DNA of 42,726 nt from the NCBI GenBank assembly GCA_003164715.1, contig PLTZ01000077.1, forward strand, positions 1 through 42,726. Reading direction: 5' to 3'. The position numbers and the translations under genes were made by a program. Positions 20,035 through 38,432 of this stretch are shown piece by piece (within the stretch, counting starts at the first letter, position 1; every line of letters begins with the position of its first letter). The notes beneath the pieces are model-generated. The model ran no database searches. It worked only from the letters and a program-made list of their open reading frames with translations, and had not been told where the DNA came from. Origin of the DNA: Opitutaceae bacterium (GTDB lineage: Bacteria; Verrucomicrobiota; Verrucomicrobiia; Opitutales; Opitutaceae).

Positions 20035-20665
20035 CACGGGATAAAGGCGAGCGGGCATAGTGGCCCTTAAGCATGATCAATTCATGCTTGAGGATGCGCT
20101 TGCTCGAAGACTTGGGCAGGCGCCGTTTCAGCCGGATGCCGTGTTGTCTTTGGCCCGGGTGACAACGAAGATGCCCCGCTGCATGAGCGCCCAGAGGTGG
20201 CCGAAGTCGACGTAAGCTTTGTCAAAAGTCACGATTTCTCCCTCGAAGAGGCCGGCGCACAACTCCCGGGTCCGCGCGTTGTCGTGCTGACGGACTGTGT
20301 CCACGATCGCAAAGCCCGGCAGCAAGCTCTGAAGGTTCAAAGGGTTCAATCGGAGATGGCACCTGACCGCTGCCCTGCGTCGGCAGTCCTTCGCCCAGTT
20401 CATGCAGGAGGCCATCATTTGGATCGTCGCAGAGTCCGCCGCGTCGATAGCACGCCGGAACCACCAGATTAACCCGCATTTCCCGCAACCTCGAAGAAAC
20501 GAGGGACACAACGACTAAAAATGCTGAGCATCGCCCAGAACAACTTCTCGGCCATGGCGCATCCTCGGGCCTTGTTCGCATGGCTGAGCGTGTTCTTAGC
20601 CGGCGGCCGCTGGAATAGGTCCGAACCGTATAGGTGGACGGCGGGCCACCTCGAACGAAAGCAAT
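20035..20665 (-). pseudogene. broken IS4-type transposase
   Basis: Three reading frames on the minus strand, read from about 20665 downwards, together give an IS4-like transposase: first LFQRPPAKNTLSHANKARG and MAEKLFWAMLSI, then after a frame change AIDAADSATIQMM (catalytic-region DS), CHLRLNPLNLQSLLPGFAIV, DTVRQHDNARTRELCAG and EIVTFDKAYVDFGHLWAL, then after another frame change near 20130 KSSSKRILKHELIMLKGHYA. The first ~100 residues of a normal transposase are missing, and I find no clear terminal inverted repeats. Dead element. An 8-base inverted repeat (20069-20076 with 20082-20089) sits inside the decayed C-terminal part. Confidence 0.75.
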
Positions 20666-20815
20666 GGCGGCGTTTCGCAACAAGACCTGCTCCTGAAGCA
20701 TCAATTGCGACAAGGTCTCATGGCATGGCAAATTAATTGTCATTAATCTTTCTGCTTGACTTTCGGCCCAAAACATGACTCACGTAAGAACTGTATTCTC
20801 TGAATACGAATAAGA

Positions 20816-20821
20816 TATAAT
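20816..20821 (+). promoter_or_regulatory. candidate -10 box in an AT-rich island before the RiPP genes
   Basis: A perfect TATAAT at 20816-20821 lies in a strikingly AT-rich stretch (about 20720-20910) in otherwise GC-rich DNA, about 160 bases before the first precursor gene. No good -35 lies 16-18 bases upstream (the best is a weak tattct-like hexamer). The AT-rich tract may also be a target for a nucleoid protein, or the edge of acquired DNA. Confidence 0.4.
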
Positions 20822-20981
20822 TTTATACAACTATTTTGCACCGCTTGGATGAAGCTCGTATGTTAATGTTTGTAATAAGCATTGTTAATTAATTTGTTTG
20901 GAACAGGCGTGGTGCCGCCGCCAACTGCTCGACGACACCGCTCCAAGGATAAGTCAAAAGCAGCCAAAGGGAGTATAAACC

Positions 20982-21128
20982 ATGCCAAAATCAGAGAAAA
21001 AGGCTCAAAAGATTAAAGGTGCGCCGCTCAAGGACCTCAGAGTGCGCAAAGACGTTAAGGGCGGCGGTGCTTGCCCGTGTACGTCGATGCCGAATGATCC
21101 GGGCGGCAAGCAATTGAGGAGGATGTAG
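20982..21128 (+). CDS. RiPP precursor peptide 1 (Gly-Gly leader, CPC core)
   Basis: A 48-residue peptide. The ATG at 20982 has a very good ribosome site, AAAGGGAG at 20966-20973, eight bases away. The leader is Lys-rich (MPKSEKKAQKIKGAPLKDLR), then VRKDVKGG, with KDL at 17-19 and KGG at 26-28. The core after Gly28 is GACPCTSMPNDPGGKQLRRM, with two Cys (31, 33), three Pro and a basic tail. The leader matches that of the peptide encoded at 23206 in the exact same register. The next gene is a SPASM radical SAM enzyme, and the locus encodes a C39 peptidase-exporter that would cut after Gly-Gly. Too short to match a family by eye; the call rests on leader, position and ribosome site. Confidence 0.8.
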   Translation: MPKSEKKAQKIKGAPLKDLRVRKDVKGGGACPCTSMPNDPGGKQLRRM

Positions 21129-21165
21129 GCCCCTTCCGAGGGGTGAGTTGAGAATCCGGGGCAGC

Positions 21166-21251
21166 AGTCGCTGGCTCCCCTTGGGCGAGGACGTAACGCC
21201 GCGTTGGCGGCGTGTGGCGCGGCAACCTGTAGGGTATCCGAGCCAGCGACT
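21166..21251 (+). promoter_or_regulatory. structured RNA between precursor 1 and the radical SAM gene
   Basis: An outer stem of 12 perfect base pairs is formed by agtcgctggctc (21166-21177) and gagccagcgact (21240-21251); after a two-base bulge a further gcagc/gctgc pairing (21161-21165 with 21254-21258) extends it. Inside lies a 7-bp hairpin, acgccgc (21196-21202) with gcggcgt (21207-21213), loop gttg. There is no U-run after it. It lies 38 bases after the precursor stop and 122 before the enzyme start, so it could stabilise the precursor mRNA or attenuate transcription into the enzyme gene. The 244-base gap contains no other gene that I can support. Confidence 0.5.
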
Positions 21252-21372
21252 TTGCTGCCGTCGCAAAGGGAAGGCGGACGGCCGCTAGCCCGGGGTCGCG
21301 GGTCGACCTCGAACCAGAGCCAACTCCCCGTCGAAGCAAGGAACACCTGTTGCACCGCGCCTGCCCGTAGCC

Positions 21373-22887
21373 ATGGCACCGACTTCGCGAAAAAGGAAAC
21401 CGGCGTGCACGGCCGACTTCAGCCGTTCCGTCGACAAGGACGGGACGGTGATTCATTTCTCGGTCCGGGGCAGGTCGATGCTGTTCAACGGGCACGCAGG
21501 GAAGTTCTACGACTCGTTGCCGCGCTGGGCCGAGGCCGAGCTCCTTGAGGCTGCGCAGGACGGCTCGACCCAGGCGCCCCGAAGCCACGGGGTGCGCGGG
21601 ACAAAGGGCGCGGGCGCTTCCGCATTCCGCAGGGAGCTGCGCCTGTTCCGAACTGGGCTGCATCCCTCGCTCGCTCCGGAGGAACGGCAGGGCGCCTTCG
21701 AGCGGCGCGGCCAGCCACGGGTCATCAATGTCTTTGCGGGCCAGGCGTGCAACCTGGGCTGCCGGTACTGCGTGAACCGCCAGGGCACATTCGGAGGCGC
21801 GCCGTCCGTGATGTCGCAAGAGACAGCGCAAAAGGTGCTCAGGTTCATTCGCGGGGTCTGGGAGGCGCGCGCGGACGGCCGCATGAGCGTCAATATCCTG
21901 GGAGGCGAGCCGCTGCTCGCGGGGGATGCGGTCTACGCCCTCGTCCGCGGTCTCCAGGACTTGAATCACGCAAGCGCGTCGAACGAGATTCGCGTCGTGC
22001 TCATCACCAACGGGACCATTTACAACAGCAAGGTGTTCGAAGTGCTGGCCGAGCGTCCCGATCTTTGCGCGGTGGCGGTCAGCCTCGACGCATTCCAGGC
22101 GGCGCATGACCTGAACCGGCCCTTTGCGAACTCCGGGCGCGGCTCCTACGCGACGGTCCTCGGCACCATCGAGAGGATGACAAGCGAGCGCATTCCGTTC
22201 TCTGTAACCTGCGTCATTCCCTATCCGTACGACTACATCGGCGCAGCCGAGGAACTACACCGCGCCGGAATCACCAACCTGGAGCTTAAGGACCTCATCG
22301 ATTACGTCTATGGCGGCTCCGCGGTGCCCGAGGATTGCACCGGCCGGCTGGCCACCTGGCGCGCAAATTACCTGGCCTACACGGACTATTTTATCGAATA
22401 CCTGCATTCAAAGTCGCCGGCAAGGCACGGTGACCGGAACGCCCTGGTTAAGTATTACGGCGGTGTTTTCAATCCGAGGGTGGGGTTCTACCGCACCCTC
22501 GCCTGCGGTATAGGCGACGAGAAGCTCGGGATCGGGGCCGATGGCGCGATCGTGCCCTGCGAGTTGCTGCTCGGACACGCCGATTTTGCCGTGGGCAATG
22601 TGCGGGACGGCTTCGATCCAGGGAGAATGCAGCGGTTCGAGAGGCAGGTGTTGGACCAGGGGCAGTTCCGGACCGACCACGAGAAATGCCGCCGATGCTT
22701 CGCCAAGCTGATCTGCGGGGGAGGATGCTACACGCAGAGCTACGACGCAACGGGCCGTTTCGATCCGTGTGAGGAGAGGACCTGCGAGCTCATTCGGGAG
22801 AAGGCCCGGATCGACCTTTACTTCCTTGCGCGCTTGAAGGACGAGCACCCCGCGACGTTCGCCGAGTGGGGCGGCATCCTCGATTGA
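21373..22887 (+). CDS. radical SAM/SPASM peptide-modifying enzyme
   Basis: A 504-residue protein. The radical SAM cluster motif is ACNLGCRYC (Cys126, 130, 133), followed by NILGGEP (GGEP 177-180) and VVLITNGT. The SPASM end has Cys378 and 396, then Cys439-x2-Cys442-x5-Cys448-x3-Cys452 (CRRCFAKLICGGGC), Cys466 and Cys471, the full set for two auxiliary iron-sulphur clusters. The first ~100 residues (FSRSVDKDGTVIHFSVRG, then MLFNGHAGKFYDSL) resemble a PqqD/RRE-type winged helix that could hold the leader; this is inference. It sits between two genes for Gly-Gly leader peptides. It most likely forms a cross-link or thioether or epimerises core residues. The ATG at 21373 lacks a clear ribosome site. 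Confidence 0.88.
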   Translation: MAPTSRKRKPACTADFSRSVDKDGTVIHFSVRGRSMLFNGHAGKFYDSLPRWAEAELLEAAQDGSTQAPRSHGVRGTKGAGASAFRRELRLFRTGLHPSLAPEERQGAFERRGQPRVINVFAGQACNLGCRYCVNRQGTFGGAPSVMSQETAQKVLRFIRGVWEARADGRMSVNILGGEPLLAGDAVYALVRGLQDLNHASASNEIRVVLITNGTIYNSKVFEVLAERPDLCAVAVSLDAFQAAHDLNRPFANSGRGSYATVLGTIERMTSERIPFSVTCVIPYPYDYIGAAEELHRAGITNLELKDLIDYVYGGSAVPEDCTGRLATWRANYLAYTDYFIEYLHSKSPARHGDRNALVKYYGGVFNPRVGFYRTLACGIGDEKLGIGADGAIVPCELLLGHADFAVGNVRDGFDPGRMQRFERQVLDQGQFRTDHEKCRRCFAKLICGGGCYTQSYDATGRFDPCEERTCELIREKARIDLYFLARLKDEHPATFAEWGGILD

Positions 22888-23205
22888 GGCAAAGGGCCTG
22901 ACGCCTCCGCGTCTGCCCGGGAAACAGGCCATCTGCAGCGGCAAGGGCGGCAGGCGCGCGGGTTAAACGCAATCTCAGAAATCGCTCACGGACAGGCCTT
23001 TGGCCGATAGCCAGGACCATCGGATATCAGGATCCATAATTCGCCCCCTACCGGTGCACGATGGGAAAGCGATGGATTCGGCAACGAGGATTCCTTGGAT
23101 GCATCTTGCCATTCACCCAGATTAAGTTAATGCAACTGGACGGCGTTAATCGGGCGCTCGTGGCCCGAAACCAAGAACAAATGCCCCTAAAGGGGCCCTA
23201 CAGAA
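22888..23205. other. gap between radical SAM gene and precursor 2
   Basis: 318 bases without a supported gene. Just before the second precursor a small hairpin, gcccc-taaa-ggggc (23183-23196), contains the only plausible ribosome site (aaagggg), so it could limit translation of that peptide. A short open frame from 23061 overlaps precursor 2 out of register and has no recognisable sequence. No third leader-like peptide was found. Confidence 0.45.
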
Positions 23206-23358
23206 ATGAAACCCGCAAAGAAGATAGCCACGGCAAAAGGCAGCGTTAAATTCAAGGATCTCCAAGCAAAGAAGAATCCCAAGGGGGGCGCCCTGACATC
23301 CGGGAGCGATACGCTGAAAATCGGGAGCGATACGCTGAAGTCGGCTTTTTTAAAGTAA
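23206..23358 (+). CDS. RiPP precursor peptide 2 (Gly-Gly leader, GSDTLK repeat core)
   Basis: A 50-residue peptide starting at the ATG at 23206, with an aaagggg ribosome site about ten bases upstream, partly inside a small hairpin. The leader (MKPAKKIATAKGSVKFKDLQ, then AKKNPKGG) has KDL at 17-19 and KGG at 26-28, the same positions as in precursor 1, with the same Lys-rich character. The core after Gly28 begins ALTS and contains two copies of GSDTLK (33-38 and 40-45), ending SAFLK. It has no Cys, so any radical SAM product would have to be a carbon-carbon, ether or epimer modification. Two Lys and two Asp/Thr pairs recur every seven residues. Confidence 0.8.
   Translation: MKPAKKIATAKGSVKFKDLQAKKNPKGGALTSGSDTLKIGSDTLKSAFLK
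23301..23339 (+). repeat. tandem 21-base repeat inside precursor 2
   Basis: cgggagcgatacgctgaa occurs at 23301-23318 and again, without a mismatch, at 23322-23339. The period is 21 bases, seven codons, so the peptide repeats the heptad GSDTLK plus I or S. The exact DNA identity points to a recent in-frame duplication of a core unit. Confidence 0.9.
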
Positions 23359-23475
23359 AGACTACCTGAGATTAGTTGAGGGGACCGTTAGGGAGGCTTT
23401 TGCAAAGTCCAAGCGGCTGTGCCCGCGTGGACCTGATTGTCTCTTAGAAGGCACCGGCAAGACAGCCCGGAGAAG

Positions 23476-23501
23476 CGCCCCGCGGCTTATCGCGCGGGGC
23501 G
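23476..23501 (+). terminator. GC hairpin between precursor 2 and the convergent maturation gene
   Basis: cgccccgcg (23476-23484) and cgcggggcg (23493-23501) form a perfect 9-bp stem with an 8-base loop. It lies 118 bases after the precursor 2 stop and before the 3' end of the minus-strand gene at 23589, where a shared terminator would be expected. No U-run follows on either strand. The rest of 23359-23588 holds nothing I can identify. Confidence 0.45.
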
Positions 23502-23588
23502 ATGTGCCGCGTAGGCAGGCACTAATGGGGGATTGCGCGCCATAGCAATTCACCGATCCCCATCAAACGGCCAAACGGCGCCGGGCCA

Positions 23589-24647
23589 CTACCAGAAGAG
23601 CCAGCGGATCTTGCTGCCCGCGGCCTCGGAGAAATGGCTGTCCAGGATTCTCCGCACCACCCTGCCCTTGACACGGGCATCGTCCAGGGTGGGCTCGCTT
23701 CTGCGCAGGACGCGGCGGACGCGAAAGACGCCGCCTGAAGCCGCCGGGCCGCGGGGCTCACCGATTCCGGCGAAAAGCAGTTCCTGCCGCTCGGCCTCGG
23801 GCAGGTCCTCTGCGAGCAGGTCGATCTGCTCGCACGGATAGCCGGCCTCGCGCGCCACCTCCTCCAGCGAGAGCCCGTCGTCCCGGACACAAATCAGGGC
23901 CTCGCGCGCAGCGTCCTCCGAATCAAACTCGGCTGTTTCCACCTCAAGCCGGGTCAGCGGGAGGCGCAATGTGACAAGGGCCCTCGCGAGCTTCTCCGGA
24001 GTCGACACAGAATCGCATACCGCGCGGTACGAACCCTCCATCGCGAGCATCTCCTGAAACCACTCCTCGTTTCGGCGCAGGGCCCCAAGCCAATCCCCAA
24101 GGCCCTCGGCATTCATTCCAAAGCGCACGAGGAATCGGCCTCGCTCTCCTTCCAGGTCCAAGGCATTCCCTCCCTGTCCCCAAGTGTGGCGCGCCACAAG
24201 CCGCCGGCTGTGTTCCGTCGCCAGCGGCCCGAAGGATCCCGATAAGAGCAGATCGGGCGCCACGGCCTCGATTCGGCCCAAATCGATGGCACCGGCATCG
24301 GTACGGTCGGCGGAGACCCTCTCCCTGAGGACTTCCCACCAATGGCAGCGAATGAAGTAGCCCTCCAAGCCCTCGGTGCTAAGGCCGCGCGCACTGAGCC
24401 AAGCCTCGGTATCCTCCGCGGAGATAAGGTCCCGGTCGAATCGGAATTGGTTGATCTTTTGCTCGATAACATCCTCTTCGATCTCAAGCCCCAGTCGCGA
24501 CGCCTCGCCCTCGCAATCAGCCTGCCATTCAAGGCGGGCCAACAACGGTTGGAGCTCATTCCGGAACTGGGCCGCGCACAGCACATCGGTGGTGCTGACC
24601 ACCGCGCCATTGAATTCAAAAGTCGCAAGATCCCCAGTCGATGGCAC
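23589..24647 (-). CDS. PpiC/SurA-like peptide maturation protein
   Basis: A 352-residue protein. I choose the GTG read from 24647, with GAGAGAG about seven bases upstream; the open frame continues further but is then a shadow of the divergent methyltransferase gene. Residues ~1-120 are a SurA-N-like helical domain: FEFNGAVVSTTDVL, LGLEIEEDVIEQKINQFRFD, AWLSARGLSTEGLEGYFIR. The last ~110 residues look like a degenerate parvulin domain (FDSEDAAREALI, LSLEEVAREAGYP, GEPRGPAASGGVFRVRRV). Such proteins accompany HlyD and C39 exporters of Gly-Gly peptides and are described as PpiC-related maturation proteins (TIGR04500-like, from memory). No signal peptide. It may chaperone the precursor to the enzyme or exporter. 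Confidence 0.72.
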   Translation of the reverse strand: MPSTGDLATFEFNGAVVSTTDVLCAAQFRNELQPLLARLEWQADCEGEASRLGLEIEEDVIEQKINQFRFDRDLISAEDTEAWLSARGLSTEGLEGYFIRCHWWEVLRERVSADRTDAGAIDLGRIEAVAPDLLLSGSFGPLATEHSRRLVARHTWGQGGNALDLEGERGRFLVRFGMNAEGLGDWLGALRRNEEWFQEMLAMEGSYRAVCDSVSTPEKLARALVTLRLPLTRLEVETAEFDSEDAAREALICVRDDGLSLEEVAREAGYPCEQIDLLAEDLPEAERQELLFAGIGEPRGPAASGGVFRVRRVLRRSEPTLDDARVKGRVVRRILDSHFSEAAGSKIRWLFW

Positions 24648-24812
24648 AAGAAACTCTCTCTGCGTCTGCGCGCCGAAGGTCAACGTATTTGGCCCAGGTG
24701 TCCGCGATTTGCCCGGTCCGCTGCAGGAGGGGGCATTGCCAAGCCGTGCGCAGCCCCGGTATCCGTTTGCCAAGCCCTCGTTTGACGCCTGAGACTGCCA
24801 GCCCAACGGGAT
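24648..24812. promoter_or_regulatory. divergent promoter region, maturation protein / methyltransferase
   Basis: 165 bases lie between the minus-strand GTG at 24647 and the plus-strand ATG at 24813, so two promoters must be here or further inside. I see no strong -35/-10 pair or palindrome. Confidence 0.35.
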
Positions 24813-26021
24813 ATGAACATCGCCGCGCAGGTCCGGGAGATTTACGAGCAGCGCCCGTATCCGTTTGGAGGCAGGCGGTCGAGGCGCCAGCCGTGGATCC
24901 TGAACCTGGACTGGGTCGATGCGTTTGGCCGCGACGCCGGCGCCGTCAAACCCGCGCGCGTCCTCGTTGCCGGATGCGGGGACGGAACTGAGGCGTTGCA
25001 GTTCCAGCGCCTGCTTCCCGAAGCCATGATCGTCGCCGTCGACTTCAGCGCTCGCTCTATAGCGCTCGCAAGGCGCAGGCAGAGAAGCGAGCGCGACATG
25101 CAGCGAATCCGTTTCCTTGTGGCCGACATCGCGGATCCCTCCCTTGCGAGGACGCTCGGGGAAACCTTTAACCTCATCGCATGCCACGGCGTGCTCTCCT
25201 ATGTCGCCAGCCCCGTTCAGGTATTCAGGAACTTCGCCCGGTGCCTGGAAGGTCGGGGCGTGCTTTACCTCGGAGTCAACGGATCGAGGCATGTGAGCAC
25301 CGTCTTTCGGCGGGCGCTGCCGGCACTGGGAATCGGCCTCGACCGATTCGTCGCATCCAAGCGGGTGAGCGATGCGCTGAGGTTGTGCGACGCCGTGATC
25401 TCGCGCGATGGGTTCCCGCGCGTGTCGGGCCTGGGGCCGACCTTCCTTGCCGGCGACGTGTTCGGACCGTTGAACCGGTGCCTGTCCCTGACCGAATGGA
25501 CCCTTTTTGCGCGGCGGGCGGGGCTTCACTTCCGCGGAAGCGGCTCATCCGTCAGGCTGTTTCGGCAAGCCGCCGAGAGCGGCCTCCAAGGCGTGCTGAT
25601 GCCGAGGTCCCGCGGGGAGGTTTGCGACCTTCTGGAGCGTCTGAGCCCATCGCAGTTTCATCGCCTGCTGTTCTCAAGGGCTCCCGAGGAGAATCCGCCG
25701 TGGGAAAACCGCCGCAGTCTCCTTAGGTGGAGGATCGAGCTTTCCCGCCTTAATTCAATTATGCTTCCGCGCCCCCCCAAGAGAATCCGCGACCGCCTGA
25801 GGCCCGTGACGATCGTCAGCTCTGCCGCGAGTCTCAGTTCGGAGTGGCAGATGCCCGAGTGGGAGGTCGAACTGCTGCGCCGTGGCCACAGCATGCGCTC
25901 CGTGGGGAGCATCCTCGACGCAATCCCCCTCCTCGTGCCGTTCGCCGTGCTGAGGAGCCAGCTCTATCTCCTCCATCAGATGGGCGTCATCACCCTGCGG
26001 CCCCCGGCGGGCCCGGCTTAA
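24813..26021 (+). CDS. class I SAM-dependent methyltransferase in the RiPP locus
   Basis: A 402-residue protein. The start MNIAAQVREIYEQRPYPFGG carries the Y-x-x-x-P-Y-P entry common in this methyltransferase group. Motif I is VLVAGCGDGTE (50-60), with the acidic motif II loop IVAVDFSARSI, FLVADIADP, and FNLIACHGVLSYV after it. About 180 residues beyond the Rossmann domain end in LLVPFAVLRSQLYLLHQMGVITL, which looks like a winged-helix or regulatory domain. It is divergent from the maturation protein gene and ends four bases from the convergent HlyD gene, so it lies inside the locus and not at its edge. It may methylate the peptide; a separate metabolic role cannot be excluded. Confidence 0.8.
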   Translation: MNIAAQVREIYEQRPYPFGGRRSRRQPWILNLDWVDAFGRDAGAVKPARVLVAGCGDGTEALQFQRLLPEAMIVAVDFSARSIALARRRQRSERDMQRIRFLVADIADPSLARTLGETFNLIACHGVLSYVASPVQVFRNFARCLEGRGVLYLGVNGSRHVSTVFRRALPALGIGLDRFVASKRVSDALRLCDAVISRDGFPRVSGLGPTFLAGDVFGPLNRCLSLTEWTLFARRAGLHFRGSGSSVRLFRQAAESGLQGVLMPRSRGEVCDLLERLSPSQFHRLLFSRAPEENPPWENRRSLLRWRIELSRLNSIMLPRPPKRIRDRLRPVTIVSSAASLSSEWQMPEWEVELLRRGHSMRSVGSILDAIPLLVPFAVLRSQLYLLHQMGVITLRPPAGPA

Positions 26022-26025
26022 AGAG

Positions 26026-27171
26026 TCAACGGGGAGATCCGGCCATATTCTCGCGAAGCTGGCGGATGGGCTCCAGGACGTACTCGATCGGGGTCCGACT
26101 TCCGACCACCACCCGGGCCTCGCCCCTCATGCCTGCACGCAGCGGCAGCGCCTGCCCCCCGACTTGGATCGTGTCCCGGTCGAGCTGGGCGGCGGCGATG
26201 AACTGCCCCCCGTCGCGTGAGGAGACGGCCGACGGGCTTATCCAGGTGATGGTTCCCGTGATGGTACCGTAACGCTGGAAGGGGAATGCTTCGGCGAGGA
26301 ACCGGACCCTCTGGCCGACGGCAAGACGGGACATCGCCGGCTCGGACAGGAGCAGTCGCAGCCTCAGCTTCCCGCTCGTCCGGGCGAGCTGGCATAGCTC
26401 CTGCCCCTGCTGCACAATGCTACCCGGGTTGTTCTCGGCCATCGAGATGACAACGGCATCGTAAGGGGCGCGAATCGACACGAGGTTCTGGTCGGAGTCG
26501 CCGAGCTGCCTGCTCAGGGAGCCGAGCCGAATCTCAATCTTCTTAATGTCCGCAAGCCGGTCCGAGCGCTGCCGTTCCTGCTCGTTGGCCATCTGCTGGC
26601 GCTGCAGGACGAGCTGCTGGCGCGTCCTTTGGGCCACGCTGAGATCCTTCTCGGCCCCAGTAACCTCGAGGCGGCGCAGGATGAGGTCGGTCTCGGCATA
26701 GATCCCCAGCTTCAGCAGCTTCTCGACCCGGCTGGCGAGGTCGCGCTCCACCTCAAGAGTGGCCCCGCGGAACCGTATCTCCTCGTCGGTCTGCGCTATC
26801 TCGTGGTCCTTGATCTGAAGGTCCGCCGCATCCGTGACTTCGGCCCGCTTTAGGTCGTTGCGGCGCAGGGCCAGATCCGCGTCAAGGGAGCGGGCCTGGG
26901 CATCGCGGTCGTCGACATCCTCGGAACTCAGGACAAAGAGCTCCTCGCCGGCCGCGACCGCGCGTCCCTCCTGGATCCGGACCTGCCGCACAACCGCGGC
27001 GCGCGGCGCCTGAATCGGGTCGGCCCCGGCCTCTGGAACTAGCAGGCAAGGGCAGCGGATCGTCTCCGGCACGCGGACGAGGACCAAGGCGAGCAGGCCC
27101 GCCGCGAAAATCCCGATGACCAACCACGCCGCAGCCCGGAACACCCAGTTGGGCGGATCCCTAGAAAGCAT
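26026..27171 (-). CDS. HlyD-type membrane fusion protein of the peptide exporter
   Basis: A 381-residue protein. The ATG read from 27171 has AAAAGGAG about seven bases upstream and is clearly better than the GTG at 27225, which has no ribosome site. A single membrane segment lies at about residues 11-32 (FRAAAWLVIGIFAAGLLALV). A lipoyl-like half (IQAPRAAVVRQVRIQEGRAV), a long coiled coil rich in Arg/Glu/Gln (about 80-215), the second half (VSIRAPYDAVVISMAENNPG) and a beta-barrel (LPLRAGMRGEARVVVGSRT) follow in the standard order. It lies 68 bases behind the C39 exporter gene on the same strand; together they would form the inner-membrane part of a type I secretion path. Confidence 0.88.
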   Translation of the reverse strand: MLSRDPPNWVFRAAAWLVIGIFAAGLLALVLVRVPETIRCPCLLVPEAGADPIQAPRAAVVRQVRIQEGRAVAAGEELFVLSSEDVDDRDAQARSLDADLALRRNDLKRAEVTDAADLQIKDHEIAQTDEEIRFRGATLEVERDLASRVEKLLKLGIYAETDLILRRLEVTGAEKDLSVAQRTRQQLVLQRQQMANEQERQRSDRLADIKKIEIRLGSLSRQLGDSDQNLVSIRAPYDAVVISMAENNPGSIVQQGQELCQLARTSGKLRLRLLLSEPAMSRLAVGQRVRFLAEAFPFQRYGTITGTITWISPSAVSSRDGGQFIAAAQLDRDTIQVGGQALPLRAGMRGEARVVVGSRTPIEYVLEPIRQLRENMAGSPR

Positions 27172-27239
27172 GGACGACTCCTTTTCCAATGCCTCCCGGT
27201 CGGACGTCCTTGCGTTGGATTTCACGGTTGTGGTTCGGG

Positions 27240-30200
27240 TCAGAGTCCCAGTTGCTGGCTTGAGAGGTAGAAGTAGAGTCCCCGCTTGGCCATGAGCTCC
27301 TCGTGGTTCCCGGCCTCGGCTATCTCACCCTTTTCAAGCACCACGATCGTGTCAGCCTCCCTGATAGTGCTCAGCCTGTGGGCAATCACGATGCTGGTGC
27401 GCCCGGACATGAGGCGGCCCATGTTCTCCTGGATGGTGCGCTCCGACTCGGTGTCGAGGGCGCTCGTGGCCTCGTCGAAGATGAGGATCGGTGGGTCATT
27501 GTAGACCGCACGGGCGATCGCGATGCGCTGGCGCTGCCCCCCCGAGAGGGCCAGCCCGGATTCGCCGATCATGGTTTCGTAGCCCATCGGCAGGCGCATG
27601 ATGAAGTCGTGGGCGTTGGCGACCTCCGCAGACCAGAGCACGCGGTCATAGTCGGGCTGGCTGTCGCCGAAGGAAATGTTGCCGGCTATCGTGGCGTCAA
27701 AGAGGTAATTCTCCTGCAGGACAAGGCCGATTTGCCGCCGTAGGTCACGGTGGTTCAGCGTCTTGAGGTCAAGGTGATCGATGAGAATGGAGCCCTCCGT
27801 CGCCTCCATGAGTCCGGAGAGAAGCTTGATCAGCGTGGTCTTGCCGCTGCCGCTGCGGCCGACGACCGCGACCATCTGCCCCGGGGCGATGTTCAGCGTG
27901 ATGCCCTTGAGTATGGCCGGCGCCTCGGGCCCCCCGTATCTGAAGCCGACCTGCCTGAGCTCGATTCGCCCCTCAAGGCTCCTGACCGGCAGCAACCGGG
28001 AGCGGTCGGCTCCCTGCTCCGGCTCGTGCTCAAAGATGTCGTTCATGCGGTTCAGAAGCACCGCCGCCATCTGGACCGAGTCCCAGATCCCGAGCGCCCG
28101 GAGGATGGCGGCGTAGGCCATGGCCGTCAGGGAACTGAACGCGACGAAGCCGCCCACCGTGAGGCGGCCCTCGATGACGCTATGGGCACCAAACCAGAGG
28201 AAGAGTCCCGTCGAGATGAGTCCGATGGTCTGGAGGATCCCGTCGTAGGACATCACGATGAAGTTGCTCCGGAAGACCTTTCTCGAGACCGAGAGGAACT
28301 CGGAGAGCATCGTCTCGCGGAACGCGAGCTCGGCAGATGCCGCCTTGACCGCCTCGATTCCCTTGATGGCGTCAATCTGGCGCGAGTTGTACCTGCCCTG
28401 GCTCTGCTCGACGTCGGCGAAGAGCGGACGGAGGATCTTGACGGAGAAGACCATGAGCGCGGCATAGAGGGGGATCGTGGCGAGGAACACGACCGTCAGC
28501 CTGCCGCTGAAGGCAGCCATGAAGCACAGCGCCCCCGCCAGCTGGACAAAGGCGAGAATACCGCCGATGCCGTGCTGCACGAAGAACTGCCTGACCTGGC
28601 GCGCTCCGTCGAGCCTTCGCTGGATGTCTCCCGTGCGCCTGCTCGCGAAATACGACATCGGGAGCGACAGCAGCCTGCGCGTGAGGTAGTCGAGGAGGGC
28701 CGTGTCGATGCGCAGGGTGGCGAACCCGAGCAGGTACTGCTGCAGGAGATTGGCCAGCTGGTAAAAGACAAGGCAGACACCAAGCCCGAGCACGATCACG
28801 TTGAGAAGGCCGAGGTCGTTCTCGACAATGACCTTGTCAACCACGGCCTGGGTGAAGACCGGGAAGAGCAGCTGAAGGAAGCTCGTCACGCACGCAAGCA
28901 GGACGGCCGGGACAAGGACGCTGCGGGACTGCTTCAGGAACGGCAGCAGCCACGCCAGGGTTGGGCGGTTGAGCGGCGCGTTCTCGAACGCGATCGTGTA
29001 GTCGAAGAGGGCCGCGTATCCCGACCACTTCTCCCTGAACTCCTCGACCGGGATGCGGCGGATTCCCCTGGCAGGATCCGCCACCCGGACGCGGGAGGTG
29101 CCGACGTCGAACAGCACCATCCAGTGGTTGCCTTCCCAGTGCACGATCGCCGGCAGGGGCATCTCCGGAAGGTTGCGCATCGAGGCCTTCACGCTGCGCG
29201 CCGCGAGGCCCAACTCGGTGGCTGCGTGGCAAATGGCCTTCAGGCTCGTCCCGTCCTGCGAGACGTGGCACAGCCGCCTGATAACCGAAAGGCTGATGTC
29301 GCGCCCGAAATGCCGGCAGACCATCGAGAGGCTCGCGGCGCCGCAGTCCATCTCGTCGATCTGCTGGACAAACGCCATCCTCCGGATCTTGTGGGCGCGC
29401 CTGCCAAAGTGCCCCTTCTCGTCGGCAAAGGGGGCCTCGCCCTCCTCGGGTCCCTCGGCTTCGGCCTCCCCTGTTCGCGCCCCCTCCTGGAGGACGGCGC
29501 CTGCCTCGGCCGGCAGCGATTCTATGGAAAAGTCGAGCGGGACGCGGGCCTCGGTGTCCTTGTTGTACTGGGCCACGCGCTCGTCGAGCAGCTTCGAGAA
29601 GTCGGCAAACCGCTTTCTGAGGTCGTTGACGACCTCAGGCTGCAGCGCGAACAGCTCCGTATCGGCCGACGCCTCGGCCGAGGCCGCGCGCGGAGACCCG
29701 GTGAGCAACGAGAGTTCGCCGAAGAAGTCCCCCTCGCGGCAGAAGGCCAGGTTCCTGACCTGGGTCCCCTTCGCGGCGAAGATCCGCACCCGCCCGGTCC
29801 TCACGATGTACATCGGCCCCCCGGGGTCTCCCTCGCGCAGGATCATCTGCCCCTTCGAATAGCTCACAGGAGAAAGGTTCTCCACTAGCTCCCTGAGGGC
29901 CTGCGGCGACAGGCGTCCGAAATTGCTGAACTCGTACAGAAACCCGTGGAGGGCCCTGAGGCGGACCGAAAGCTCGACGTGGCGCCTCATCTCCGGGTAA
30001 CGCTCGAGAAGCTCCAGGAAATCGTCTCGTCCGAGCCTGAGGACCTCGACCGAGGTGCTGCAACGCACGGACGCCGTGCGCAGGCCACTCTCCAGGAGCG
30101 CGGAGTCGCCAAACTCTGAGCCGGGCCGCAGGGAGGCGAGCACGATCTCGTCGCCCTTCTCCGTCCGCTTGACCACCCGGGCCCGCCCCGTCGCGAGAAC

Positions 30201-30359
30201 GTAGAAGGCGTCCGACTCGTCTCCCTCGCGTACGATCAGGTCCCCAAAGTCGAAGCGCTCCACGCGAAACTTGTCGCAAAGCTCCGCCCGCTGGTCATCC
30301 GGCAGGAATCTGAGCAGAGGCGATCCGCGCAGCAGTTCATCGGTGTTGTCCGTTCGCAT
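27240..30359 (-). CDS. C39 peptidase ABC exporter with two N-terminal cNMP-binding-like domains
   Basis: A 1039-residue protein. Two cyclic-nucleotide-binding-like domains come first (about 15-130 and 150-265), each with the phosphate-cassette-like G-E-x-x-L/A core: GSEFGDSALLESGLRTASVR and GDFFGELSLLTGSPRAASAE. An acidic linker leads to a C39 peptidase with Gln333 and Cys339 (QQIDEMDCGAAS), His412 (VHWEGNHWMVLFDV) and Asp428 (VADPARG), all catalytic residues present. Six membrane helices follow (about 475-755), then the ATPase: Walker A GRSGSGKT (834-841), LSGGQ (938-942), Walker B ILIFDE (958-963). It should cut precursors after Gly-Gly and export the core. ATG at the end of a 257-base gene-free gap. 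Confidence 0.92.
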   Translation of the reverse strand: MRTDNTDELLRGSPLLRFLPDDQRAELCDKFRVERFDFGDLIVREGDESDAFYVLATGRARVVKRTEKGDEIVLASLRPGSEFGDSALLESGLRTASVRCSTSVEVLRLGRDDFLELLERYPEMRRHVELSVRLRALHGFLYEFSNFGRLSPQALRELVENLSPVSYSKGQMILREGDPGGPMYIVRTGRVRIFAAKGTQVRNLAFCREGDFFGELSLLTGSPRAASAEASADTELFALQPEVVNDLRKRFADFSKLLDERVAQYNKDTEARVPLDFSIESLPAEAGAVLQEGARTGEAEAEGPEEGEAPFADEKGHFGRRAHKIRRMAFVQQIDEMDCGAASLSMVCRHFGRDISLSVIRRLCHVSQDGTSLKAICHAATELGLAARSVKASMRNLPEMPLPAIVHWEGNHWMVLFDVGTSRVRVADPARGIRRIPVEEFREKWSGYAALFDYTIAFENAPLNRPTLAWLLPFLKQSRSVLVPAVLLACVTSFLQLLFPVFTQAVVDKVIVENDLGLLNVIVLGLGVCLVFYQLANLLQQYLLGFATLRIDTALLDYLTRRLLSLPMSYFASRRTGDIQRRLDGARQVRQFFVQHGIGGILAFVQLAGALCFMAAFSGRLTVVFLATIPLYAALMVFSVKILRPLFADVEQSQGRYNSRQIDAIKGIEAVKAASAELAFRETMLSEFLSVSRKVFRSNFIVMSYDGILQTIGLISTGLFLWFGAHSVIEGRLTVGGFVAFSSLTAMAYAAILRALGIWDSVQMAAVLLNRMNDIFEHEPEQGADRSRLLPVRSLEGRIELRQVGFRYGGPEAPAILKGITLNIAPGQMVAVVGRSGSGKTTLIKLLSGLMEATEGSILIDHLDLKTLNHRDLRRQIGLVLQENYLFDATIAGNISFGDSQPDYDRVLWSAEVANAHDFIMRLPMGYETMIGESGLALSGGQRQRIAIARAVYNDPPILIFDEATSALDTESERTIQENMGRLMSGRTSIVIAHRLSTIREADTIVVLEKGEIAEAGNHEELMAKRGLYFYLSSQQLGL

Positions 30360-36791: not shown

Positions 36792-38432
36792 TCAGTGCAC
36801 CTCGATTGACGGTCCCGCCGCCTCCGGCCGCACGCCCGCCATCCTCCCGCCCTCCGCGCGGCGGCTGCGCACGAACTCGGCCGCCCGCTCCAGCGCGGTC
36901 GCGATGCGCTGCCCGTCAAAGGGCTTGAGCACGTAATCGACCGCCCGGACGTCGAAGGCGTCCACCGCGTACTTCGGGTGCGCCGTCACGAAAACGACGG
37001 CCGGGCGCTCGGAAGGCTCCAGCCCGGCGACCGCCTGGAGCCCGTCGCATCCCGGCATCTGCATGTCGAGGAAGGCCACGTCTGGCCTGTCGCGTCGCAT
37101 GGCCTCCATAGCATCGGTCCCGGTGCCGTACTTGCCGACGATGTCGATGTCCTTTGGCAGGAGCGCCAGCAGGCGGGCCAGGGCCAGCGGCTCGTCGTCC
37201 GCGACCAGCACGCGAAGCCTTGCGCCGAGGGGGGCGCGCGCCGGCTCCGAAATGGCCGCGCTCGCCGCGGGCCGGGCGCCGGCGTCCCCCTGCCGGTCCA
37301 TTGCGGCCTCGGGGGCCGCACACGGGGCGTCCCTAAGCTGCCTGCGGACCCTGACCGCGAGCGCAAGCCCCTCGAGGACGGGCACGGTGTCCTCCCAGGC
37401 AAGGCACCCGTCGGTGATGCTCTGTCCATAGACAAGGGGCCGCTTTGCCAGACTCTGCGCCCCGCCGACAAGGTTGCTCTCGAGCATGATCCCGGCGATG
37501 GCGCGCTCGCCGGCCCGGATCTGGGCCGCAAGGGCCGACGCCACCGCAGGCTGCCTCGACGGGTCCTTGCCGCTGTTCGCGTGGCTGCAGTCCACCATGA
37601 GGTGCGGGGCAAGCCCGTGCTTCCTCAGGATGGCGGCGGCGGCGCGCACGTCCGGCGAGGAGAAGTTGGGGCCGCTGGTGCCGCCTCGCAGGACGATGTG
37701 CGTCTCGTTGTTTCCTCCGGAGACCCTGACCGTGTGCGACCCGTCCCGGGCGAGCATGGGAAAACGGTGCGCGGCGCGCGCCGCCCGGACCGCGTCCACG
37801 GCCACAAGGAAGTCGCCGTCCGTCCGGTTCTTGAACCCAACTGGCATCGGCAGCCCCGAGGCGAGCTCCCTGTGGGTCTGGCTCTCGACCGTCCTGGCCC
37901 CGATGACCCCCCATGAGACCAGGTCCGCATAGAACTGCCCGAGGATGCTGTCCAGGAATTCGGTCCCCGCGGCGAGGCCGAGGCGGTTGATGTCCACCAA
38001 TAGACTCCGGGCGCGCTGGAGGCCCTCGTTGATGTCGAAGGAGCCGTCGAGGCGGGGATCGTTGACGAGGCCCTTCCAGCCGACAACGGTCCTCGGCTTC
38101 TCAAAATAGACCCTCATGACGACCCGCAGGTCGTCCGCGTGCGCGGAAGCGAAGCCGGCAAGGCGCCCGGCATACTCCAGGGCCGCCGCCGGATCGTGGA
38201 TCGAGCACGGGCCCACGACGACGACAAGCCTGTCGTCGCGCCCGGCAAAAATCCCCGCGATCTCACGCCGGGCCGCGGCGACAAACCTCGCCCCTTGGTC
38301 GTCCAGGGGATAGCGCCCAAAGAGGTCCGCCGGCGCGGGCAATTGCTTTGCGGCGCGGACCTGCGCCTCCGGCGCCGAAACCCGGGCCTCGGCGGGAGCC
38401 GCCTGGTCTTTCAGGAAGTTCGCGAAATTCAT
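36792..38432 (-). CDS. DAHP synthase fused to a response-regulator receiver domain
   Basis: A 546-residue protein in one unbroken frame. Residues ~15-365 are a class I (AroFGH-type) 3-deoxy-7-phosphoheptulonate synthase with all metal ligands: Cys76 in VVVGPCSIHDP, His284 in DCSHANSGKD, Glu318 in IMLESNLVGG, Asp341 in SITDGC; also MRVYFEKPRT and GFKNRTDGDF. A ~40-residue Ala/Pro linker follows. Residues 405-525 are a receiver domain: LVADDEP (Asp412/413), FLDMQMPGCDG (phospho-acceptor Asp456), VFVTAHPKYA (Thr483), YVLKPFD (Lys503), of the kind found in LytTR regulators but without a DNA-binding end. Known DAHP synthase fusions carry ACT or chorismate mutase domains. This one suggests control of shikimate entry by phosphorylation. 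Followed, on the same strand, by no further gene; preceded 25 bases upstream by a chorismatase-like gene. Confidence 0.88.
   Translation of the reverse strand: MNFANFLKDQAAPAEARVSAPEAQVRAAKQLPAPADLFGRYPLDDQGARFVAAARREIAGIFAGRDDRLVVVVGPCSIHDPAAALEYAGRLAGFASAHADDLRVVMRVYFEKPRTVVGWKGLVNDPRLDGSFDINEGLQRARSLLVDINRLGLAAGTEFLDSILGQFYADLVSWGVIGARTVESQTHRELASGLPMPVGFKNRTDGDFLVAVDAVRAARAAHRFPMLARDGSHTVRVSGGNNETHIVLRGGTSGPNFSSPDVRAAAAILRKHGLAPHLMVDCSHANSGKDPSRQPAVASALAAQIRAGERAIAGIMLESNLVGGAQSLAKRPLVYGQSITDGCLAWEDTVPVLEGLALAVRVRRQLRDAPCAAPEAAMDRQGDAGARPAASAAISEPARAPLGARLRVLVADDEPLALARLLALLPKDIDIVGKYGTGTDAMEAMRRDRPDVAFLDMQMPGCDGLQAVAGLEPSERPAVVFVTAHPKYAVDAFDVRAVDYVLKPFDGQRIATALERAAEFVRSRRAEGGRMAGVRPEAAGPSIEVH

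Follow-up and report, generated by a model that had tools for sequence, protein, structure and literature searches.

The closest described relatives of the system reported here are the cyanobacterial group I/II clusters and HetC. Group I/II clusters combine a long-type exporter with HlyD and a SurA-like protein (Wang et al. 2011, PMC3140520), and HetC of Nostoc PCC 7120 is involved in heterocyst formation (PMC10986499). The locus studied here lies in a stretch of 42,726 nucleotides from an Opitutaceae bacterium (contig PLTZ01000077.1 of assembly GCA_003164715.1, referred to as the window). It encodes two small peptides, P1 and P2, which share a 28-residue leader ending in Gly-Gly (GG), a radical S-adenosylmethionine (SAM) enzyme between them and, further downstream, an ATP-binding cassette (ABC) exporter with a C39 peptidase. 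We consider it probable that the leader serves as the cleavage and export signal of a system of PpiC-like protein, C39-ABC exporter and HlyD adaptor, with P2 and a third precursor on contig C67 of the same genome as ordinary cargo, and with P1 and the radical SAM enzyme as a tailoring add-on.

The locus shares with the cyanobacterial group I/II clusters a large number of small GG precursors whose cores are little conserved, as well as an exporter with an N-terminal nucleotide-binding domain accompanied by HlyD and a SurA-like protein (PMC3140520). A Nostoc plasmid in PLSDB also carries an exporter of this type together with HlyD and a PpiC-type gene; its exporter protein has 38.4% identity to the present one over 69% of the query. 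By contrast, the leaders here are Lys-rich, whereas NHLP and N11P leaders are described as mostly negative, and only K-x-x-D-L is in common with the cyanobacterial HetP motif KIxDLxYLEx10GG (PMC3140520). HetC, compared through the text of its paper, has the same order of cyclic nucleotide monophosphate (cNMP)-binding domain, C39 peptidase, membrane part and ATPase, with catalytic C347/H420 in places similar to C339/H412 here; unlike HetC, whose substrate is not known, the present exporter has its likely substrates encoded next to it (PMC10986499). Haft et al. (2010, PMC2887384) attributed the conservation of NHLP leaders to transport and described tailoring enzymes as mixed and matched. The present family resembles NHLP/N11P in a leader kept for a transport cassette, in variable cores and in precursors some of which lie at a distance from the cluster. 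The leaders themselves differ: those of NHLP/N11P are long, with nitrile hydratase or Nif11 as relatives, whereas the leader here has about 28 residues and appears unrelated by eye (PMC2887384). Several small GG-motif proteins also share one C39 transporter in Synechococcus elongatus, where EbfG1-4 are secreted with PteB and have a role in biofilm formation; mature EbfG is 6-7 kDa, compared with cores here of mostly fewer than 30 residues (PMC4997328). Finally, MirC (TIGR04500) is a PpiC/SurA-like protein adjoining a C39 exporter, but the Mir cluster has a graspetide synthetase, none of which was seen here, and the present PpiC-like protein scored far below the TIGR04500 cut-off (PMC13097080). 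TIGR04500 is listed among graspetide-associated genes (PMC8939145). The features of the locus are as follows.

20982..21128, plus strand: precursor P1, 48 residues; leader 20982-21065 ending in KGG, core 21066-21125 (GACPCTSMPNDPGGKQLRRM)
21373..22887, plus strand: radical SAM/SPASM enzyme, 504 residues; CX3CX2C at residue 126 and CX2CX5CX3C at 439 (PF04055, TIGR04085)
23206..23358, plus strand: precursor P2, 50 residues; leader 23206-23289, core 23290-23355 with a GSDTLK repeat
23589..24773, minus strand: PpiC/SurA-like partner protein, start codon uncertain; distant to TIGR04500 (31.6 bits against a cut-off of 180)
24813..26021, plus strand: class I SAM methyltransferase (PF08242 and others), present in 5 of 13 clusters
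26026..27225, minus strand: HlyD-type adaptor (PF13437), present in all 13 clusters
27240..30359, minus strand: exporter, 1039 residues; two cNMP-binding stretches, C39 peptidase (C339, H412), ABC membrane and ATPase parts (Pfam)

The initial annotation had described two peptides of 48 and 50 residues about 2.2 kb apart on either side of one enzyme, with a common leader register and unrelated cores. The open reading frames (ORFs) and their spacing were found as described, the start of P1 being 2,224 bases from that of P2 with the 504-residue ORF between the two. Both leaders carry K17 D18 L19, a basic pair at 22-23 (RK in P1, KK in P2) and K26 G27 G28; 10 of 28 positions were identical, a level reached in only 362 cases when the P1 leader was shuffled 100,000 times. 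Past Gly28 the P1 core (GACPCTSMPNDPGGKQLRRM) and the P2 core (ALTSGSDTLKIGSDTLKSAFLK) were unrelated to each other, again as first stated.

The leader was not confined to these two genes. A DNA search of the same genome returned one further site besides the window, a third precursor on contig C67 with nearly the P2 leader (MASQKKKATAKPTLKFKDLQAKKNPKGG) and a different core. When a model of the three leaders was scanned over 141 related genomes, much as the initial annotation had proposed, 25 matches were recovered in four genomes, all of the genus of the window. Three were in the own genome (G000) and are circular, since they built the model; the other 22 were in the three other genomes of the genus (G005, 4; G007, 2; G010, 16). 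One match (G010:C232) contained an ambiguous base and was excluded from alignments A2 and A3, which used the remaining 24. The translated matches gave the consensus MASxKKKAxAKxxVKFKDLKSKKNPKGG, followed by cores of 6 to 52 residues in which shared words of at least five residues were scarce (LNPQPLPP in three cores, SIKTDL in one pair). Mean DNA identity fell from 0.75 over the last 12 leader bases to 0.27 over the first 12 core bases among the 22 copies with exactly 28 leader residues; at the DNA level the leader/core boundary at the Gly-Gly codons is sharp. The P2 leader scored 51.2 bits (E 5.4e-14) against a model from which P2 and the third own-genome copy had been left out; among 5,000 shuffles the highest score was 13.5 bits. 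As judged from sequence, the leader family is real and wider than first described. A box like ACGTCACAACCC was also seen 20-25 bases before the ATG of precursors in G000:C67, G005, G007 and G010; at least 9 of its 12 positions matched in 14 of 24 precursors compared with 374 of 20,000 random 60-base stretches, a descriptive count because the box was chosen from the same sequences, and P1 and P2 lacked it.

The distribution of the leader followed that of the exporter. At 1e-150, the cNMP-binding C39-ABC exporter was found in exactly the four of 141 genomes that had the leader. In a class sample of 384 genomes, a broader leader model (alignment A4, comprising 14 of the 24 leaders above and 8 from G365 and G151) matched 10 genomes, the exporter was present in 9 and both occurred in 8. 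Five of these eight (G281, G597, G679, G698 and G717) had contributed nothing to the leader model; the other three (G000, G151 and G365) are circular for the leader, and related genomes are not independent in such counts. The ninth exporter genome, G611, had a precursor just after HlyD that was seen by pattern listing and missed by the leader model. The two leader-only genomes, G511 (E 0.009) and G602 (E 0.008, with a stop), were counted as matches and judged chance, up to about 4 chance matches being expected in 384 genomes at the E 0.01 threshold of the scan. Another leader scan matched 7 of 387 genomes, with G000, G365, G151 and G281 judged real, the last only after the class-wide leader and exporter searches, and G189, G416 and G437 judged chance by eye. 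Because the leader co-occurred with the exporter, and 22 of the 25 matches lay in genus genomes where the radical SAM enzyme was not found, the leader tracks the exporter and not that enzyme.

Genes around the exporter were conserved as well. PpiC-like protein, exporter and HlyD occurred together in all 13 clusters (12 genomes), and the leader model placed precursors on the same stretch in 11 of them. In the other two, the G281 stretch stopped at a contig end and precursors opened another contig, and the G611 precursor was the one found by pattern. A sigma-54-type activator was present in 6 of the 13 clusters. The C39 Cys and His were kept in every exporter, and the C39 Asp was replaced by Asn in one. 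The C39 domain resembled LahT and PCAT1 in sequence (6mpz, E 4.2e-20; 4ry2), and the locus has the features of a double-glycine peptide/C39 exporter (PCAT), namely a C39 domain fused to an ABC exporter and small GG-ending precursors beside it. No second good match to the C39 part was found in the own genome. The PpiC-like protein had no Pfam match and reached TIGR04500 only below its cut-off, both in the window and in the G365 relative (46.1 bits). A PADLOC scan returned generic-domain matches only. Elsewhere in the window, one ORF (36792-38432, minus strand) combined matches to a response-regulator receiver domain and to DAHP synthase, which is unusual.

All 13 exporters had FGE and the Arg that follows it in their second nucleotide-binding domain, which we take to be the cyclic-nucleotide signature. 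A gene for a HAMP plus adenylate/guanylate cyclase protein was seen divergently upstream of the exporter in two of the four genus clusters, about 0.4 and 1.6 kb away (L052:3502-5238 in G005 and L054:2426-4162 in G010, both minus strand); among the 27 stretches compared, the window included, no other had a relative of it. This neighbour suggests, as a lead only, nucleotide-gated export, an idea tempered by the finding that the nucleotide domain of HetC bound guanosine tetraphosphate (ppGpp) and not cyclic AMP (PMC10986499).

In the proposed mechanism, the leader would be recognised by one secretion system consisting of the PpiC/SurA-like partner, the exporter with its two cyclic-nucleotide-binding domains and C39 peptidase, and the HlyD adaptor. 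The C39 domain may cut after Gly27-Gly28, and the exporter would release the core by the ABC/HlyD route, perhaps with the PpiC-like protein as chaperone. P2 and the C67 precursor would travel as ordinary cargo independent of the radical SAM enzyme, and P1 would be modified by it, the product leaving through the same exporter. Nucleotides may gate export, and any role of the cargo is likewise conjectural. If export reads the leader, the cores are free to diversify. Support from sequence, synteny and co-occurrence extends to the existence of the leader family, to its being coding, to the sharp boundary between leader and core, to the conserved system and to the absence of the enzyme from the other system genomes searched.

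Several points weigh against this reading, in addition to the circularity and non-independence in the co-occurrence counts. In the C39 protease LahT, a hydrophobic groove holds positions -4, -7 and -12, and charge at -4 or -7 blocks processing (PMC6363468). The present leaders lack those hydrophobic residues. Position -4 was Pro in 23 of 24 leaders and Val in P1; -7 was Lys or Arg in 21 and -12 in 23, so that cleavage by this C39 domain is no foregone conclusion. P1 is also the weak member of the family. Its leader, the most divergent (36% identity to P2), scored 13.3 bits (E 0.029) when left out of the model, compared with at most 9.4 bits in 5,000 shuffles, and 10.4 bits (E 0.2) under the class-wide model, a score matched by at least 3 of 20,000 shuffles; its membership is statistically modest. 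Core Cys, moreover, is no marker of enzyme substrates, since G005 and G010, in which the enzyme search gave no match, hold five of the six Cys-containing cores (of 41). P2, finally, lies beside the enzyme as well.

The departure from LahT could point to a leader code of its own. Hydrophobic residues (VLIMFWY) were found at -10 in 23, at -13 in 23 and at -15 in 17 of the 24 leaders, whose net charge was +4 to +11. We propose only tentatively, as something short of likely, a separate cationic C39 code in which position -4 is Pro, -7 and -12 are basic, and -10, -13 and -15 are hydrophobic, read by an exporter lineage gated by a nucleotide second messenger; cyclic nucleotides would then switch the secretion of a hypervariable set of peptides, and radical SAM tailoring would be plugged in through the leader. 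Neither P1 nor P2 matched NHLP, N11P or any other NCBIfam model up to 0.001, and we recognised no description of this leader in the titles and opening abstract lines of the openly licensed papers that our literature searches listed.

The initial annotation suggested, as one of two options, that the enzyme between P1 and P2 may accept both through the common leader. The PF04055 (56.6 bits) and TIGR04085 (51.7 bits, cut-off 27) scores of this radical SAM enzyme were above cut-off and it matched structure 5wgg. It stayed below the curated cut-offs for PapB ranthipeptide (134.7 against 340 bits), SCIFF (132.1 against 425) and nif11 (128.4 against 518.7) maturases, a profile that fits the broad radical SAM/SPASM peptide maturase class and none of these named families. 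Among the 12 system genomes only one had the enzyme at 1e-6, G005, G007 and G010 giving no match at that threshold, two of these three being only 64% and 87% complete. At 1e-20 it was found in 2 of 141 relatives, own genome included, with no second good match in the own genome. Three of 377 genomes of a phylum sample, again including the own, had it (the other two at 24-25% identity), as did 13 plasmid records at 23.5-28.9%; viral contigs yielded none by short exact patterns. No close relative was seen in any of these sets.

That P1 and P2 flank the enzyme on the same strand with a leader register in common speaks for recognition of both by the enzyme, and about 115 residues before the radical SAM core leave room for a leader-binding domain, for which a single-sequence model of very low confidence (predicted local distance difference test, pLDDT, 40) suggested three strands followed by helices. 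Against this, 22 of the 25 leader matches came from genomes that gave no match to the enzyme, the exporter already accounts for the leader, and the P2 core lacks Cys. We regard modification of both peptides through the leader as unlikely, and it is not retained as the principal explanation. The other option offered at the time, different tailoring for each core, fits better, in that the enzyme probably serves P1, although that step is conjectural. P1, the precursor with the most divergent leader and with CPC in its core, precedes the enzyme by 244 bases on the same strand and is most likely what the enzyme tailors.

Two further observations concern this part of the window. A long stable hairpin lies between P1 and the enzyme (21129-21290; -80.9 kcal/mol, z -2.1, with 7 of 200 shuffles at least as stable) and is possibly an attenuator or processing site; an Rfam scan of 20500-24000, hairpin included, gave no match up to E 0.1. 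Just upstream of P1, a transposase-like remnant (20128-20511, minus strand; PF01609, below cut-off) might fit horizontal gain of the P1-enzyme pair.

A shared tailoring step other than the radical SAM enzyme could also be the main reader of the leader, with all cores modified before export. The PpiC-like protein, with its occurrence in every cluster, and the methyltransferase, in 5 of 13, are candidates, and MirC (TIGR04500) is needed by a graspetide synthetase and has an N-domain weakly like a leader-binding element (PMC13097080). The methyltransferase, however, was not found in 8 of the 13 clusters, and no graspetide synthetase, LanM, YcaO or other maturase was detected by Pfam among 20 flanking proteins of five clusters, which covered part of the flanks. 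We judge this explanation improbable. We give no more credit to the idea that P1 is a precursor dedicated to the enzyme and stands outside the leader family, its leader resembling the others by chance or convergence. The left-out scores of 10.4-13.3 bits and the shuffles that reach the class-wide score are in its favor, but the leader of equal length, the ten positions in register, the GG end and the location in the same cluster speak for P1 as a member.

Coding status was assessed in 22 leaders of exactly 28 residues. Over 231 pairs, the proportions of synonymous (pS) and nonsynonymous (pN) differences were 0.61 and 0.25 in the true frame, and pN exceeded pS in the two other frames; since the pairs share ancestry and are not independent, these values describe rather than test. 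In the core DNA, Arg made up 2.4% in frame compared with 5.4-16.1% across the five other frames, and G+C peaked at third codon positions. Compared with 1,593 random downstream peptides the cores were also Arg-poor, and none of 5,000 resamples had so little Arg. Random capture, in which any sequence downstream of a landed leader would become the core, was rejected on the grounds of the coding-like in-frame cores and their low Arg. That the small ORFs are untranslated, as their very short length and Lys/Ala-rich N-termini might suggest, is highly improbable given that only the true frame had a pN much lower than pS, and given the in-frame core composition and the co-occurrence with the exporter. 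The initial annotation would have given up the two genes had conservation or a coding signature been missing; the leader proved to be conserved in relatives and to carry such a signature.

Other features of the cores were recorded. Repeat cores were frequent in other families, for example GHTGHIGHTGH or VAGRQVAGHTVAGRQ. The cores AIDAYLKIES and AFNAYVKVDT seemed to us reminiscent of the start of Hcp proteins, and the link was dropped. PF05638 was above cut-off in 2 of 9 genomes; a full-length match was without such a leader, and none was seen at two other loci. A leader-like ORF in G281:C5 (L078:8406-8618; KLRDMQAKKNVSGG) has an end resembling the Hcp C-terminus by eye, with no exporter in that stretch. 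In L077, L079, L115, L116 and L122, a second precursor type with an RLDDL/KLDDL leader and a conserved FG[AS][TS]-like core occurred beside the variable-core ones, and it was the first precursor after the sigma-54-type activator where one stretch held both.

Where the initial reading had a single enzyme act on two substrates, the present one has a single exporter serve many cargoes, and one of these cargoes probably has an enzyme to itself. The present reading ties the leader family, the exporter and the partner protein together and separates the export signal from tailoring. The leader model finds precursor genes far from their cluster, which neighborhood-based mining would miss. The departure of the leader from the motif of studied C39 proteases makes its recognition a question in its own right, and a separate leader code, if true, would forecast what substrates of HetC-type exporters look like. 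With a domain order like that of HetC and likely substrates encoded alongside, the locus makes the cargo of such exporters testable.

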